From: Frankia alni
GTDB taxonomy: Bacteria > Actinomycetota > Actinomycetes > Frankiales > Frankiaceae
Assembly: GCA_026225295.1 (NCBI GenBank)
Contig: JAMFSN010000129.1
Location: forward strand, 1-36,344
Length of the DNA stretch: 36,344 nucleotides
Direction: 5' to 3'
Every line of letters starts with the position of its first letter. The stretch's first letter is position 1. The notes below the pieces were generated by a model. That model saw nothing but the letters and a program-made list of their open reading frames with translations. It did no database searches and was not told the DNA's origin. The translations under genes and the position numbers were made by a program. Positions 10,120 through 17,151 of this stretch are shown piece by piece.

Positions 10120-10251
10120 CCGGCCGGTGGAATAAACGGCCACCGACCCACGGCTCGGGCCGAGGTGGCGCTGGGTTGGCGCATGGGATGCCCCTGGAAT
10201 TGTTCAGGATCACCCAGAGATGATCATGGAATGACAATGCTGACCGCTGGG

Positions 10252-10268
10252 CCGCGACCGGGTCGCGG
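10252..10268. repeat. 17-bp interrupted palindrome
   Basis: CCGCGACC and GGTCGCGG flank a single central G, a perfect dyad 133 bp past the preceding stop codon. It may form part of a terminator or a protein-binding site. Confidence 0.35.
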
Positions 10269-10307
10269 ATGTGTGTCGGGAGTGGTTCGTCCACCGCGCC
10301 ATCTGGA

Positions 10308-10329
10308 GTGATGCGTCTTCGCGCATCAC
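10308..10329 (+). terminator. Hairpin GTGATGCG-N6-CGCATCAC
   Basis: A perfect 8-bp stem (10308-10315 with 10322-10329) closes a 6-nt TCTTCG loop, a stable UUCG-containing tetraloop-like turn. It lies 57 bp before the -35 of the SOS promoter and could insulate it from upstream transcription. No T-run follows. Confidence 0.3.
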
Positions 10330-10385
10330 CCGCGCGGGCTCGTTCGTCCATCTCGTCGGGCCACCCGGTGGGGCCTGGATCGGCA

Positions 10386-10414
10386 TTGACGCTTCCTCGC
10401 GGGCCGGGTTTACT
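10386..10414 (+). promoter_or_regulatory. Sigma-70-type promoter of the SOS mutasome operon
   Basis: TTGACG (10386-10391) and TTTACT (10409-10414) are separated by 17 bp. The predicted transcription start is near 10421, directly beside the LexA box. This arrangement lets LexA block initiation. Confidence 0.65.
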
Positions 10415-10424
10415 GGAACTCGTT

Positions 10425-10438
10425 CGAACACATGTTCG
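10425..10438. promoter_or_regulatory. LexA (SOS) box
   Basis: CGAACACATGTTCG matches the Gram-positive/actinobacterial LexA consensus CGAAC-N4-GTTCG with perfect half-sites. It sits just downstream of the -10 element and upstream of the HEPN-imuA'-imuB-dnaE2 genes, a known LexA regulon in mycobacteria. No other equally good box was noticed in the window; dinB at 18600 lacks one. Confidence 0.88.
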
Positions 10439-10477
10439 CACGATCCATCCGGATCGACAACCGTGAGGAGTGGTCCT

Positions 10478-10639
10478 GTGAACGGACCCGCCATGGATCC
10501 CGCCCGCGCCCGCGCCGGCGACCATGCGATCGACGTCGATCCGGTTGGCGTCGCCCACGTTCAGATCGCCCACGTCGATGTCGGTGACGGTTCCGACGCC
10601 CGGATCACCGACCGGCGCTCCGACCGTGTGCGGGCGTGA
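10478..10639 (+). CDS. Small SOS-promoter-proximal ORF, 53 residues, unknown function
   Basis: A GTG at 10478 follows GAGGAG with 7-8 nt spacing and opens 53 codons ending at TGA 10637-10639, 4 nt before the next ATG. It is the first ORF after the LexA-controlled transcription start, with a leader of about 57 nt containing a CGATCC-N4-GGATCG hairpin (10441-10456). The peptide is acidic in the middle, with Asp/Val/His repeats (VGVAHVQIAHVDVGDGSD) and an Arg-rich tail (RITDRRSDRVRA). I recognise no family. It may be a real small SOS protein, a leader peptide for coupled translation, or an extension region before the HEPN gene. An alternative internal ATG lies at 10493. Confidence 0.5.
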   Translation: MNGPAMDPARARAGDHAIDVDPVGVAHVQIAHVDVGDGSDARITDRRSDRVRA

Positions 10640-10643
10640 CGTC

Positions 10644-11168
10644 ATGGGCATTACAGCACCGCTTCCGGTCCGTACCGCCCCCGTTTCCACCGCCACTTCC
10701 TCCCGCACCCGGCCACCGGTCCGGCTGACACCACCGCCGATCGGACTGCCCCGGCGGTCACGGGACGCTCTGCTGGCCGCCGCCCGCACCGGCCTCACCG
10801 AAGCGGCCCTCGCGCCCGTGCCGGGCGAGCGCTACGCCCTCGCGCATCTGTCTGCTCTGCGGCTGGCCGCCGCGGTACTGGCCGACCGGGCCCAGTCCGT
10901 CCCCGGTCACCGGGGACGCCCGCTGAGCGCCTGGCGGCTGCTCGTCCGCGTCGCGCCTGAGCTTGAGGAGTGGGCGAATTTCTTCGCGGCCGGAGCGGCC
11001 AAGCGGTCCGCCGCCGAGGCCGGTCTCCCGGTGGTGACCAGGCGGGATGCCGACGACCTGATCCGTCAGAGCGAAGCGTTCCTGGAGGTTGTCGAAGTGA
11101 CCCTCGGGTTGCTCCATCAGCCGGTGCTGGGTCCGGTGGACGCAGACGAAGATCAGCGGGTCAGGTAA
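10644..11168 (+). CDS. SAV_6107-family HEPN domain protein
   Basis: Start ATG 10644 gives 174 residues; the preceding frame is open further upstream, to 10524, but those residues look like low-complexity shadow. After a Pro/Arg-rich N-terminus of about 38 residues, the protein is all-helical: [37 protein letters not shown], then WRLLVRVAPELEEWANFFAA and DDLIRQSEAFLEVVEVTLG. This is the pattern of the small HEPN proteins found beside imuA' in many actinobacteria. RYALAH at residues 63-68 is an R-x4-H, the signature of HEPN ribonucleases, though activity is unproven. It lies 2 bp upstream of imuA' and in the LexA-controlled operon, so it should be damage-inducible. A role as a mutasome accessory or damage-linked RNase is inference. 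Confidence 0.75.
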   Translation: MGITAPLPVRTAPVSTATSSRTRPPVRLTPPPIGLPRRSRDALLAAARTGLTEAALAPVPGERYALAHLSALRLAAAVLADRAQSVPGHRGRPLSAWRLLVRVAPELEEWANFFAAGAAKRSAAEAGLPVVTRRDADDLIRQSEAFLEVVEVTLGLLHQPVLGPVDADEDQRVR

Positions 11169-11170
11169 CG

Positions 11171-11875
11171 ATGGCCGCCGCCTCCGTGCTCTCCCCGGTT
11201 CCCCGGATCGGGACCATGGTCCCCGGTGTGGAACGTCACCGGGGACCGGCCGGCGAGCAGCTCCTCCCGGTCATCCCGGGGCTGGCGTCGCTGTTTCCCG
11301 AGGGCGGCCTGCGCCGCGGTTCGACGGTGACCGTCGCTGATTCGACGTCTCTGCTGCTGGCTTTGTTGAGTGGGGCGTCCCGGTCGGGTGCCTGGTGCGC
11401 GGTGGTCGGGATGGCCTCCTTCGGCGCGGTGGCGGCGTCCGAGTCGGGGATCGCGCTGGATCGACTGGCGTTGGTCGCGCAGCCGGGTGCTGCCTGGCAA
11501 TCGGTGACGGCGGCGTTGCTGGATGCCTTCGAAATGGTGGCGGTGTGCCCTTCCACCCGGGTCTCATCCACCGATGCCCGCCGATTGGCGGCCCGCGCCC
11601 GGGAGCGGGGCTCGCTGCTGGTCCCGCTCGGACCGTGGGAAGGAGCCGACCTTCGGCTCTCCGTGACCAGGCAGCACTGGAACGGTCTGGGCGACGGGCA
11701 CGGATATCTGCGCGGTCACCAGGCCGAGATTCATGCGGAAGGTCGGGGGAGTTTTGCCCGCCCCCGGCAGGTCCAGCTGTGGCTGGCGGGTGAGGATCTC
11801 GCCGGCCGACCCGCCGGATCGACCACCGCCGCTCCCCGTTCGGCGGCAGTCGTGGTCCGGGAGGTGGTCGCGTGA
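11171..11875 (+). CDS. imuA': ImuA'-like RecA-fold mutasome accessory protein
   Basis: The 234-residue protein starts at ATG 11171, two bases after the HEPN stop. It has the layout of actinobacterial ImuA': a short N-terminus, then PVIPGLASLFPEGGLRRGST at residues about 35-55, VTVADSTSLLLALLSGAS, and CAVVGMASFGAVAASESGI. The last part continues with LDRLALVAQP. The fold is RecA-like, but the normal P-loop GxxxxGKT is absent (ADSTSLLL occupies the place), as in mycobacterial ImuA', so ATP hydrolysis is doubtful. ImuA' binds ImuB and takes part in damage-induced mutagenesis with DnaE2. Its stop overlaps the GTG of imuB by 4 bp, and the operon has a LexA box. Confidence 0.88.
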   Translation: MAAASVLSPVPRIGTMVPGVERHRGPAGEQLLPVIPGLASLFPEGGLRRGSTVTVADSTSLLLALLSGASRSGAWCAVVGMASFGAVAASESGIALDRLALVAQPGAAWQSVTAALLDAFEMVAVCPSTRVSSTDARRLAARARERGSLLVPLGPWEGADLRLSVTRQHWNGLGDGHGYLRGHQAEIHAEGRGSFARPRQVQLWLAGEDLAGRPAGSTTAAPRSAAVVVREVVA

Positions 11876-13569
11876 CGCCGCCGGTCCGGACGCTCGCGGT
11901 CTGGGTGCCGGACTGGCCGCTCGTCGCCGCCCGGGTTGATCCGGGCACCATCGCGGCGGTACTGCGGGCCGGTCGGGTGTGGGCCTGTACCGGAGCCGCG
12001 CGGGTGGCCGGGGTCGTCGTGGGACTACGGCGCCGGGACGCGCAGTCCCGCTGCCCCGAGCTCCAGCTCATTCCGGACGACCCGGCCCGGGATGCGCGGG
12101 CCTTCGAACCGGTGATCGCGGCGGTCGAAACCGTGGTTCCGGGCGTCGAGGTGATGCGTCCCGGGCTGTGCGTCGTTCCGTCCCGTGGGGGCGCGCGTTA
12201 TTTCGGCGGCGACGATCAGCTGACCGTCCAGGTGCGGCAGATGGTCCGTTCGCGGACGGAGGTGGCCTGTCGGACGGGAGTCGCAGGCGGTCCGTTCGCG
12301 GCCGTCCTCGCGGCGCGCGCCGACCAGGTCGTGCCCCCGGATGGAACGCGGGAGTTCCTGGCCCCCATGCCCGTCGAGCTCCTCGGTCAGCCCGAGCTGG
12401 CCGAACTGCTCCGGCGGCTGGGTCTCACCACTCTGGGGGACGTCGCCCGGTTGCCGGCGCCGGATGTGCTCGCCCGGTTCGGGCCCGACGGCGCCCAGGC
12501 CCATCGACTGGCCCGCGGACGGGACGGCCACTCTCCTACTGCCCGCGTACCGCCGCTTGAGCTGGCGGTCAGTTGCGAGCTGGACCCTCCAGCGGACCGG
12601 GTCGAACTCGCGGTTTTCGCCGCGAAGAATCTGGCCGAGCAGGTGTACGACCGGTTGGTCGACGCCAATCTGGCCTGCACGCGCATCCGCATCGAGGCTC
12701 AGACCGAACACGGTGAACAGTTCGGTCGCGTCTGGCGTCACGACGGCCCGTTGACGGCGGTGGCTATCGCCGAACGGGTCCGGTGGCAGCTCGACGGTTG
12801 GCTGGCCGGTACGGCTCCCGCTGTCCAGCCCACCGCGGGAGTGACCCTGCTCCGCATCGTCCCGGAGGAAGTCGTCACGGCCGCCGGCCGGCAGCTCGGA
12901 TTGTGGGGGGACGGGGGTAGCGCGGCGGCCCGGGTCACCCGGGCGCTCGCCCGGGTCCAGGGTTTGCTCGGGCCGGACGCGGTGATGACCGCGCAGGTGG
13001 TCGGAGGTCGCGGGCCGGCCGAACGGGTCCGGCTGGTGCCGTGGGGAGAACCGCGGACCGATTTCGGGCCCGCGACCTGGGGGCCGGGTGGTTTTCGGCC
13101 GGGTGGTTTTGCGTCAGGCGGTCCCGGAGCACGGAGTTCGGCGCCGGACGACACCAGATCCGGTGACTCCGGAAGTGATGGTTCCGGGTCGGACCGCGAG
13201 GGTCCTGACGGGGCTCCCCGTGTACGGGACGAGCGCAATTCCAAGCCCTGGCCCGGCGCCCTACCAGGGCCCGCGCCGGCAACAGTCCTCCCTGATCCCC
13301 GGCCGGCGGTTCTGTCTGACGCATCCGGTGCTCCGGTCGGGGTGACCGGTCGCTGCGCCGTGACCGCTCCGCCGGTCCGGCTGGTCGTAGCGGGCGGGGT
13401 GGATCTGGAGGTGGTGGCCTGGGCGGGTCCGTGGCCGGTCGATGAGCGCTGGTGGGACAGCGCGACGCACCGCCGCAAGGCCCGATTCCAGGTTGCGCCG
13501 CGGTCCGGTCCGGCGTGGCTGCTCGCGCTGGAGCACGGTCGTTGGTGGGCGGAGGCCGTCTATGACTGA
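11872..13569 (+). CDS. imuB: ImuB, non-catalytic Y-family polymerase homologue
   Basis: The 565-residue protein starts at GTG 11872 (GTGA overlap with imuA'). It has the Y-family layout but lacks the catalytic acids: LAVWVPDWPLVAAR replaces the DMDxFF motif, and the region around VVPSRGGARYFGGD replaces SxDE. The little-finger region follows. QLGLWG near residues 341-346 is the beta-clamp-binding motif through which ImuB docks DnaE2 and ImuA' on the sliding clamp. Residues about 400-490 are a long Gly/Ser/Asp/Pro linker. The final 55 residues (VVAWAGPWPVDERWWD, then ARFQV and WWAEAVYD) are the conserved ImuB C-terminus. Mycobacterial ImuB is about 525 residues, so the linker is expanded here. 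It ends 12 bp before dnaE2. Confidence 0.95.
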   Translation: MTPPVRTLAVWVPDWPLVAARVDPGTIAAVLRAGRVWACTGAARVAGVVVGLRRRDAQSRCPELQLIPDDPARDARAFEPVIAAVETVVPGVEVMRPGLCVVPSRGGARYFGGDDQLTVQVRQMVRSRTEVACRTGVAGGPFAAVLAARADQVVPPDGTREFLAPMPVELLGQPELAELLRRLGLTTLGDVARLPAPDVLARFGPDGAQAHRLARGRDGHSPTARVPPLELAVSCELDPPADRVELAVFAAKNLAEQVYDRLVDANLACTRIRIEAQTEHGEQFGRVWRHDGPLTAVAIAERVRWQLDGWLAGTAPAVQPTAGVTLLRIVPEEVVTAAGRQLGLWGDGGSAAARVTRALARVQGLLGPDAVMTAQVVGGRGPAERVRLVPWGEPRTDFGPATWGPGGFRPGGFASGGPGARSSAPDDTRSGDSGSDGSGSDREGPDGAPRVRDERNSKPWPGALPGPAPATVLPDPRPAVLSDASGAPVGVTGRCAVTAPPVRLVVAGGVDLEVVAWAGPWPVDERWWDSATHRRKARFQVAPRSGPAWLLALEHGRWWAEAVYD

Positions 13570-13581
13570 CGGAATCCGACG

Positions 13582-16500
13582 ATGACGGGATGGTGGAATC
13601 CGCCGATCCCGTGGGTGGAACTCGAACAGCGGCTGTCCGGAAAGCCGCTACCACCAAAGCCCGGTTCGGACGGCCCGGGTGCCTTGCCGGGCCCGGCTGG
13701 TTCGGTTGATTCGGACGGCTCGGCCGGCGGCGGCTCAGGCACCGGCGCGCCGGTCGCCCCCCCGGCCCCGGCGGCTCCACTGGCGGAGGCCAATTCTCAT
13801 CGACCGGCAGAGCTGGGGAGTTCCGCCAGCAGCCCGTCCCGCCGGAGCGGTCCGCGTTATGCGGAGCTGCACTGCCACTCGGCCTTCAGCTTCCTGGACG
13901 GAGCGAGCCAGCCGGAAGATCTGGTTGCCGAGGCGGCCCGCATCGGGCTGTCCGCACTGGCGATCACCGACCACGACGGGCTGTACGGCGTGGTCCGTTT
14001 CGCCGAAGCGGCGCGGGAGGTGGGCCTGCCCACGTTGTTCGGCGCCGAGGTGGCGACCGGCCGGTCGGAGCCCCGGGGCGGTGCGCCCGATCCCGAAGGG
14101 GAGCATCTGCTGGTGCTGGCCCGCGATCACATCGGCTACGCCCGGCTGTCCCGCGCGCTCAGCGATGCCCACCTGGCCGGCCGGGAGAAGGGCCGGCTCG
14201 TCGCCCGGCCCGAGGCGTTCGCGGCGGTCGCCGACGGCCGCTGGTTGGTGCTCACCGGATGTCGCAAGGGGAGCGTCCGGGCGGCCCTCGCGGCCGGCGG
14301 TCCCGCGGCGGCCGGCCGGGCCCTCGATCGGTTGGTCGGCCTTTTCGGTCGCGACAACGTGGTTGTCGAGCTGACCGATCACGGGGATCCGCGCGACACG
14401 GAACGTAACGACATCCTCTTCCGGTTGGCCGGCGAGCACCGACTCGACACCGTCGCGACAAACAACGTCCACTACGCGACGCCGGCCGGTTATCGGCTGG
14501 CAGCGGCGATGGCCGCCGTTCGGGCGCGGCGCGCCCTCGACGACATGGACGGCTGGTTGCCGTCGGCGGGCACCGCTCACCTGCGGTCCCCAGGTGAGAT
14601 GGCCGCCCGGTTCGCCCGGTACCCGGGTGCGGTGGAGCGAGCCGCCCGTATCGGGGACGAGTGCGCATTCGAACTGGAACTCATCGAGCCGAAACTGCCC
14701 GACTTTCCCGTGCCGCCCGGCCACACCGAGGCGAGCTGGTTGCGTCACCTCACCGAGCGGGGTGGGGCCGGTCGGTACGGACGCCGCTCAGAACCGGTCG
14801 CCCGCCACGCGTGGAAGCAGATCGACCATGAACTGGACCTGATCGAGCAACTCGAGTTCCCCGGGTATTTCCTGATCGTCAACGACATCACCGAATTTTG
14901 TCGTCGGGCCGGCATTCTGTGTCAGGGGCGGGGTTCTGCCGCGAACTCCGCCGTCTGCTATGCGCTCGGGATCACCGGCGTGGACGCGGTGGGTTTCAAG
15001 CTGCTTTTCGAACGGTTCCTCGCACCCGAACGGGATGGACCTCCCGACATCGATCTCGACATCGAATCGGGCCGCCGCGAAGAAGTGATCCAATACGTCT
15101 ACACCCGGTACGGCCGGGAGTGCGCGGCACAGGTGGCCAATGTGATCAGCTACCGGCCCCGGTCGGCGGTGCGCGACATGGCCCGAGCGCTCGGCTATTC
15201 ACCGGGACAACAGGACGCGTGGTCCAAGCAGATCGAACGGTGGGACCCCCTCCCGCCGGTCCCGGCCGGCCAATCGAGCGATCACCCGCCCCCGGCGCCG
15301 CCGGATACGTCGGACGATCCGCCCGGTCCGTCCCCTACGGAAAGGCCCGCATCCTCGGACCCGGGTCTTTCCGTAGGGCCCCTGCCGTCGGAGCGGCCGG
15401 GCCTGCCGAGCGGGGTCGCGATCGGACACGACATCCCCGACGACGTGCTCGACCTGGCCAACCGCATCAGCCGGTTCCCGCGTCACCTGGGTATTCATTC
15501 CGGCGGAATGGTCATCTGCGACCGCCCGGTCTGCGAAGTGGTGCCCGTGGAGTGGGCCCGGATGCCTGGTCGCACCGTGATCCAGTGGGACAAGGAGGAC
15601 TGCGCGGCCGCCCGACTGGTCAAGTTCGACCTGCTCGGTCTCGGAATGCTGTCGATGCTGCACGGGGTGTTCGACCTCATCGACCTTCACCACGGCCGTC
15701 GGCTCGACCTTTCCTCCATCCCCAAGGAAGACGCGGCGGTCTACGACATGCTGTGCGCCGCCGACTCGATCGGGGTGTTCCAGGTCGAAAGTCGGGCCCA
15801 GATGGCAACGCTGCCCCGGCTGCGCCCCCGGACGTTCTACGACCTGGTCGTAGAAGTGGCGCTCATCCGACCGGGACCGATTCAGGGCGGCTCGGTCCAC
15901 CCCTACATCCGGCGCCGCAAAGATCCGAGCCAGATCACCTACCCGCATCCGTTGCTGGAGAAATCGCTGCGTAAGACGCTCGGCGTCCCGCTCTTCCAGG
16001 AACAGCTCATGCAGATGGCGATCGATGTCGCCGGTTGCACTCCGCAGGAAGCCGATGAGCTACGACGGGCGATGGGTTCCAAGCGTTCCACCGAGCGGAT
16101 GGAACGCCTGCGGTCGCGGCTTTACGAGGGAATGGCGGCGAACGGCATCACCGGTGCGGTCGCCGACGACTTGTTCGGCAAACTCGCCGCGTTCGCGAAC
16201 TTCGGTTTCCCGGAAAGTCACGCCGTGAGCTTCGCTCATCTCGTCTACATCAGTTCCTGGGTGAAACTGCATTACCCGGCCGCGTTCTGCGCGGCGATCC
16301 TGAACGCCCAACCCATGGGGTTCTACTCACCCCAGTCACTGGTCGCGGACGCTCGCCGACACGGGGTGGTCGTGCGGGGCCCGGACATCAACGCCTCCGG
16401 GGCGGACGCCGCACTGGAACCGGACGAGCCGGACCGGCCCGCCGTCCGGATCGGGCTCGGCGGGGTCCGTCATGTCACCGATGAGGTCGCCGACCGGATC

Positions 16501-17151
16501 GTCGCCGATCGTTGGACGGGCGGCCTGTACCTCGACATGGCCGATCTGGTCCGCCGGACCGGAGTGACCGAGCGGCAGGTCGAGGCGTTGTCGACGGCCG
16601 GGGCGTTCGGGTGCTTCGGGCTGTCCCGACGGGAGGCGCTGTGGGCGGCCGGAGCGGTCGCGCAGGCCCGGCCCGGACGTCTGGCCGGGATGGTCGTCGG
16701 GGCCGACGTGACGGCCGTGGCGCCCTTCCTGCCCGATCTGACCGATGACGAGCGCACCGTGGCGAACCTGTGGGCGACCGGGATCTCACCCGACAGTTAC
16801 CCGACCCAGTACGTCCGGGAGCACCTCGACGCGGAGGGGGTGCTGACGGCCGCGCAGGTGCGGGTCGCGGAACACGGCCGGCGGATCCGGGTCGCCGGGG
16901 TGGTCACCCACCGGCAGCGACCGGCGACGGCCCGCGGGACGACATTTCTCAACCTGGAGGACGAGACCGGTATGGCGAACATCATCTGTTCCCGGGGGCT
17001 GTGGACGCGCTACCGCACGGTGGCGCGCACCGCCGGTGCGTTGATCGTCCGGGGCCGGCTCGAGAAGGTGGACGGGGTCGCGAACGTCATCGCCGATGGT
17101 CTCGAGCGGCTCGATCTGTCCGGCGGCATCCAGTCCCGGGACTTCCGGTGA
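13582..17151 (+). CDS. dnaE2: Error-prone DNA polymerase DnaE2
   Basis: This 1189-residue C-family polymerase starts at ATG 13582, 12 bp after imuB. Residues 1-90 are a variable Pro/Ala/Gly-rich lead. The PHP domain begins with YAELHCHSAFSFLDGASQ near residue 92. The polymerase core has QGRGSAANSAVCYALG near 449 and the catalytic PPDIDLDIESGRREEV near 487-500. HLGIHSGGMVI and FQVESRAQMATLPRLRPR follow. A Pro/Ser-rich insert of about 55 residues (near 556-610) carries a DNA hairpin, listed separately. The OB-fold region near 1090-1175 (RIRVAGVVTHRQRPATARGT) is typical. DnaE2 performs translesion synthesis with ImuA' and ImuB after LexA derepression. Length is somewhat above the usual 1050-1100. 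Confidence 0.96.
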   Translation: MTGWWNPPIPWVELEQRLSGKPLPPKPGSDGPGALPGPAGSVDSDGSAGGGSGTGAPVAPPAPAAPLAEANSHRPAELGSSASSPSRRSGPRYAELHCHSAFSFLDGASQPEDLVAEAARIGLSALAITDHDGLYGVVRFAEAAREVGLPTLFGAEVATGRSEPRGGAPDPEGEHLLVLARDHIGYARLSRALSDAHLAGREKGRLVARPEAFAAVADGRWLVLTGCRKGSVRAALAAGGPAAAGRALDRLVGLFGRDNVVVELTDHGDPRDTERNDILFRLAGEHRLDTVATNNVHYATPAGYRLAAAMAAVRARRALDDMDGWLPSAGTAHLRSPGEMAARFARYPGAVERAARIGDECAFELELIEPKLPDFPVPPGHTEASWLRHLTERGGAGRYGRRSEPVARHAWKQIDHELDLIEQLEFPGYFLIVNDITEFCRRAGILCQGRGSAANSAVCYALGITGVDAVGFKLLFERFLAPERDGPPDIDLDIESGRREEVIQYVYTRYGRECAAQVANVISYRPRSAVRDMARALGYSPGQQDAWSKQIERWDPLPPVPAGQSSDHPPPAPPDTSDDPPGPSPTERPASSDPGLSVGPLPSERPGLPSGVAIGHDIPDDVLDLANRISRFPRHLGIHSGGMVICDRPVCEVVPVEWARMPGRTVIQWDKEDCAAARLVKFDLLGLGMLSMLHGVFDLIDLHHGRRLDLSSIPKEDAAVYDMLCAADSIGVFQVESRAQMATLPRLRPRTFYDLVVEVALIRPGPIQGGSVHPYIRRRKDPSQITYPHPLLEKSLRKTLGVPLFQEQLMQMAIDVAGCTPQEADELRRAMGSKRSTERMERLRSRLYEGMAANGITGAVADDLFGKLAAFANFGFPESHAVSFAHLVYISSWVKLHYPAAFCAAILNAQPMGFYSPQSLVADARRHGVVVRGPDINASGADAALEPDEPDRPAVRIGLGGVRHVTDEVADRIVADRWTGGLYLDMADLVRRTGVTERQVEALSTAGAFGCFGLSRREALWAAGAVAQARPGRLAGMVVGADVTAVAPFLPDLTDDERTVANLWATGISPDSYPTQYVREHLDAEGVLTAAQVRVAEHGRRIRVAGVVTHRQRPATARGTTFLNLEDETGMANIICSRGLWTRYRTVARTAGALIVRGRLEKVDGVANVIADGLERLDLSGGIQSRDFR
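15333..15378. repeat. Long inverted repeat inside the dnaE2 coding sequence
   Basis: CCCTACGGAAAGGCCCG (15333-15349) pairs with 15362-15378 at 16 of 17 positions across a 12-nt loop. It is wholly within the reading frame, in the region coding the Pro/Ser-rich insert that separates two conserved polymerase blocks. The size suggests a small palindromic element that entered in frame, or an RNA hairpin with a role in translation. Confidence 0.7.

Follow-up and report, generated by a model that had tools for sequence, protein, structure and literature searches.

The window analysed here, a 36,344-nucleotide stretch of Frankia alni DNA (contig JAMFSN010000129.1, assembly GCA_026225295.1), harbours an SOS mutasome operon, recognized by imuA', imuB and dnaE2 in series together with a LexA box in the promoter (Table 1). 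Ahead of imuA' lies a gene for a HEPN protein of the SAV_6107 type (HEPN-M), which a survey of HEPN proteins treats as an actinobacterial family, LexA and DnaE2 being unmentioned there (PMC3710099). The conserved part of the protein begins at about position 10743 and is preceded by a 32-residue P/S/T-rich leader counted from the ATG at 10644. Upstream of this ATG, a 53-codon open reading frame (ORF) starts with a GTG and ends four nucleotides before it (TGA-CGTC-ATGGGC), i.e. within the few nucleotides of the next start that characterize a coupling leader. Equally tight junctions follow between HEPN and imuA' (TAA-CG-ATG) and between imuA' and imuB, which overlap. All elements that a sequence-only reading of this DNA had listed, namely the -35/-10 pair, the LexA box, the ribosome-binding site, the GTG with its 53 codons and the 4-nt gap to HEPN, are indeed present.

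Table 1. Positions of the features at the head of the operon and of the genes downstream.
Feature	Coordinates	Strand	Remarks
Putative promoter	10386..10414	+	-35 TTGACG 10386-10391, -10 TTTACT 10409-10414, 17-nt spacer
LexA (SOS) box CGAACACATGTTCG	10425..10438	+	Unique match in the window; kept in 29/29 crown relatives
Shine-Dalgarno GAGGAG	10465..10470	+	7 nt before GTG 10478
53-codon ORF, lineage-specific	10478..10639	+	GTG 10478 to TGA 10637-10639; stands in place of the HEPN extension (crown) or the DUF6504 gene (stem)
HEPN frame, open stretch upstream of the ATG	10482..10643	+	Bounded by TGA 10479-10481; P/S/T-rich like the extensions of relatives
HEPN protein (PF18726, SAV_6107-like), 174 aa	10644..11168	+	Pfam 110.5 bits
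imuA' (Rv3395c type)	11171..11875	+	NF058630
imuB (Y-family)	11872..13569	+	PF00817
dnaE2, error-prone DNA polymerase	13582..17151	+	NF004225, 1493 bits

Shuffles would give 0.12 matches to the LexA pattern in the 36-kb window, where a single one is found. The promoter is a putative assignment: a consensus scan called none at this position, as TTTACT departs too much from TATAAT, and the call rests on conservation in relatives. The ribosome-binding site of the GTG, previously judged strong, is a good one, with a duplex energy of -8.9 kcal/mol (roughly the 5th percentile among background sites), and the Shine-Dalgarno of the HEPN ATG is weaker (-6.3 kcal/mol). A search of positions 10200-11200 against Rfam returned no known RNA element up to E 1.

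In this assembly, the ORF is offset by one base from the HEPN reading frame, and both frames are open over 10482-10636. Its length alone is not significant for DNA of such G+C content, since 48% of dinucleotide shuffles keep the frame open for 53 codons; in addition, frames of 40 codons or more begin behind a Shine-Dalgarno-like motif at 36 places in the window. The codon composition of the frame beats the shuffles (0 of 5000 as good), and its codon score exceeds that of about 99% of wrong frames. Nevertheless, this score is not decisive for coding, because the antisense frame over the same triplets scores nearly as high (0.269 vs 0.297) and because the preference continues into 10644-10740, where the frame of the ORF again scores higher than that of HEPN in a segment in which HEPN is presumably translated. 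A single-sequence structure model of the 53-residue product (hereafter the 53-mer) is of low confidence (pLDDT 66, pTM 0.27).

The family to which the window genome belongs has Frankia, Parafrankia and Pseudofrankia as its named members, and the window genome is the sole one of its genus in the comparison. When translated relatives were searched for the 53-mer between LexA box and HEPN, as the sequence-only reading had proposed, no homologue was found in 35 family genomes; the best foreign match (E 0.007) lies away from HEPN loci, and phage and plasmid records, PDB, Pfam, NCBIfam and PHROGs yielded none either. An origin of the ORF from a repeat or mobile element was rejected, as it has no second copy in the genome and only short weak repeats. 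The operon heads of 29 other loci from four crown genera (g2, g3, g5 and g6) are the closest comparison. All 29 have the same promoter layout and a LexA box at the matching place, and they resemble the window also in the position of the ribosome-binding site and in having HEPN as the first full gene of a HEPN-imuA'-imuB-dnaE2 operon. They differ from it in what the first start opens: in 29 of 29 crown loci (L002 by eye), the start codon and ribosome-binding site behind the LexA box open HEPN itself in frame, whereas in the window the out-of-phase 53-codon frame stands ahead. For example, the HEPN start of L003, a g3 locus, is AGGAGTGGTCaTG (AGGAGTGGTCATG) and matches AGGAGTGGTCcTG (AGGAGTGGTCCTG) of the window, while L002 has a weaker GGAAGGGG site. 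The 13-nt block of ribosome-binding site and start, AGGAGTGGTC(C/A)TG, is also the sole similarity of 10438-10665 to g3 DNA. Crown HEPN proteins total 159-229 residues and carry an N-terminal extension of 17-87 residues ahead of a conserved GLPRRSRD. Two crown loci show additional frames, a 26-codon ORF in the leader of L015 and an overlapping TTG start beside the HEPN start of L024, both unlike the 53-mer, and several have leaders of 60-160 nt between LexA box and HEPN. A 53-codon first gene is not conserved with the mutasome operon among the crown loci, and a new SOS small protein, one of the two possibilities raised by the sequence-only reading, is not supported. That reading had counted related genomes without the ORF as evidence against it, an outcome largely borne out by the relatives.

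Some observations on the family concern neighbouring features. The LexA box of L013 and L015 sits inside a far longer palindrome (CTCCAGTAAGTCGAACATATGTTCGACTTACTGGAG in L015). The crown HEPN extension seems to have evolved through short tandem repeats that keep the frame (e.g. GGCGGCCAACACAAC in L008; also L023). Moreover, a strong match to the dnaE2 C-terminus (E <= 1e-100) was lacking in five g3 genomes and, besides these, in G009, G017, G021, G029 and G006, all with HEPN present, and dnaE2 may have been lost or have diverged in these lineages; for a dnaE2 tree, the g3 and stem genomes likewise yielded no strong match.

Another arrangement is seen in two divergent genomes, G003 and G006, which form the stem of the family: the LexA box is followed by a DUF6504 gene (PF20114) and then by HEPN. 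In G003, HEPN starts on the stop codon of DUF6504; in G006, the distance is 4 nt (TGA-CACC-ATGGGC). The DUF6504-HEPN order is also found in many other actinobacteria, at 17 of 110 sampled loci by a motif scan and at three more (L054, L111 and L128). The idea that these operons lack an extra first gene has to be revised, given DUF6504 before HEPN in the stem members and at about 20 of the 110 sampled HEPN loci. The window resembles this LexA-DUF6504-HEPN head in having a separate first frame that ends at or a few nucleotides before HEPN, and it has the TGA-N4-ATGGGC junction in common with G006; it differs in that the 53-mer is half the length of DUF6504 and has no detectable similarity to it. 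DUF6504 is absent from the window genome and from all 32 other crown genomes. A remnant of DUF6504 was considered and rejected for the 53-mer, which scores -1.2 bits with a profile of 18 neighbouring DUF6504 proteins, 76% of shuffles being as good, and which has no match in Pfam, PF20114 included, up to E 10. Other reading frames did no better against the DUF6504 profile. Likewise, at the DNA level 10438-10665 resembles the operon heads of the stem no more than shuffled sequence does, and the HEPN N-terminus of the window shows no protein similarity to the stem HEPN N-termini.

In both the HEPN/ImuA'/ImuB tree, in which many rows are HEPN only, and the rpoB tree, the window genome is sister to the crown and thus falls between the two architectures, with a local support of 0.80 in the rpoB tree for a crown without it. 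The explanation that we prefer, and to which we give an even chance, is that the 53-codon ORF is a lineage-specific coupled leader without a conserved product. The ribosome-binding site and start behind the LexA box would be the ancestral ribosome-entry site of the SOS operon, which opens DUF6504 in the stem and HEPN in the crown and which, with DUF6504 gone, would open an out-of-phase 53-codon frame here. Upon DNA damage, LexA would be released and the transcript made; ribosomes would load at GAGGAG and the GTG, read 53 codons, stop at the TGA and restart at the HEPN ATG four bases on. HEPN would thereby be made by stop-start coupling, which may extend via the further tight junctions to imuA' and imuB, and the peptide would be a by-product without a conserved role. 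Termination-reinitiation appears to be the simplest route to HEPN, since the HEPN Shine-Dalgarno is the poorer one and the HEPN-imuA' and imuA'-imuB junctions are also tight. The coupling leader, the other possibility of the sequence-only reading, is thus plausible from the sequence and gains from the 4-nt gap, the weaker HEPN site and the next junctions. It is similar to actinobacterial upstream ORFs and coupling leaders, such as the mycobacterial ones treated in PMC11260477, in that a short frame ends beside a downstream start, which fits termination-reinitiation; the leader in the window is for its part a prediction from sequence, as would be its translation and any sensing or regulation. 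Three points speak against the leader: the ORF matches real genes in its codon choice, which could point to a protein that is real or of recent origin; HEPN retains some Shine-Dalgarno complementarity and could start alone; and the out-of-phase state could be an assembly error.

One may argue that the GTG at 10478 is the true HEPN start and that a one-base indel, either real or an assembly error, splits the extension from the domain, so that the 53-codon ORF would be the front or the shadow of a single HEPN gene of about 228 codons. We regard this as a serious possibility, though not a probable one. The matching site opens HEPN at all crown loci, and a single indel anywhere in 10482-10636 would join both open frames; the joined extension would measure about 88 aa and the protein about 228 aa, both at the upper end of what crown loci show. 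In addition, the HEPN frame upstream of 10644 consists of 57% P/G/S/T/Q, as is usual for crown extensions (29-63%). The 53-mer itself, with 23%, lies under every crown extension, its codon score is above theirs, and its protein similarity to them reaches a Z of at most 2.4; it shares with these extensions the start at the post-LexA ribosome-binding site but neither the HEPN frame nor the P/G/S/T/Q-rich composition. The displaced start is further weakened by the 32-residue leader that HEPN already has from 10644, by a stop-start junction like that of G006, and by the lack of any homopolymer of more than 3 bases near the junction. The quality of the assembly also bears on this question, as it carries at least one near-certain fault: its rpoB (G000:C206:35975-36994; L186 and L188) is without 76 conserved residues, including the QKRKITDGDKLAGRHGNKG segment, and the gap is joined exactly at a short PHG/PHG direct repeat. 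The QKRKITDGDKLAGRHGNKG segment is intact in every other aligned genome except G020, whose rpoB is likewise disturbed nearby. To our knowledge, a living cell could not lack this segment, and the gap is almost certainly an artefact of assembly or amplification. However, a collapse between repeats is a fault of a different type, hence it lowers trust in the assembly but does not point to an indel at the ORF.

The other two explanations are much less probable. That the ORF arose by chance in a high-GC untranslated leader, with HEPN translated from its own site, is unlikely: the frequency of equally long frames in shuffles and the 60-160-nt leaders of several crown loci fit this idea, yet the frame begins at a good ribosome-binding site and start equivalent to the HEPN site of the relatives, and HEPN's own Shine-Dalgarno is the weaker. 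Slightly more doubtful still is a genuine SOS-induced micro-protein, new in the genus, that took the first-gene slot after the loss of DUF6504. LexA control, the good ribosome-binding site, codon usage like that of the window's genes and the separate gene that stem relatives have in the same slot would agree with such a protein; the failure to find a homologue in any search or in any crown relative, the nil similarity to DUF6504, the low-confidence structure model and the near-equal antisense score all tell against it.

The three arrangements illustrate how an SOS mutagenesis operon can be remodelled at its head, with DUF6504 first in the stem, an out-of-phase leader in the window and a direct HEPN start in the crown, and they offer a small natural series for the study of gene loss and translational coupling. 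Furthermore, the recurring LexA-DUF6504-HEPN order ties two uncharacterised families to error-prone repair and the SOS mutasome. We found no mention of DUF6504 in the open-access papers searched, and the arrangement may still be described elsewhere. Among the loci of other families, DUF6504 followed by HEPN (SAV_6107) recurs in L054, L056, L117, L123, L128 and others, often behind a LexA box. A recurrent leader in other families was also considered and rejected, as the candidate ORFs of L068, L111, L117, L123 and L128 turned out to be whole or partial DUF6504, judged by eye in the case of L068 and L128. Finally, L095, L109 and L114 have unrelated ORFs of 40-43 codons with Shine-Dalgarno-like motifs, which end near the HEPN starts and by eye are not DUF6504.
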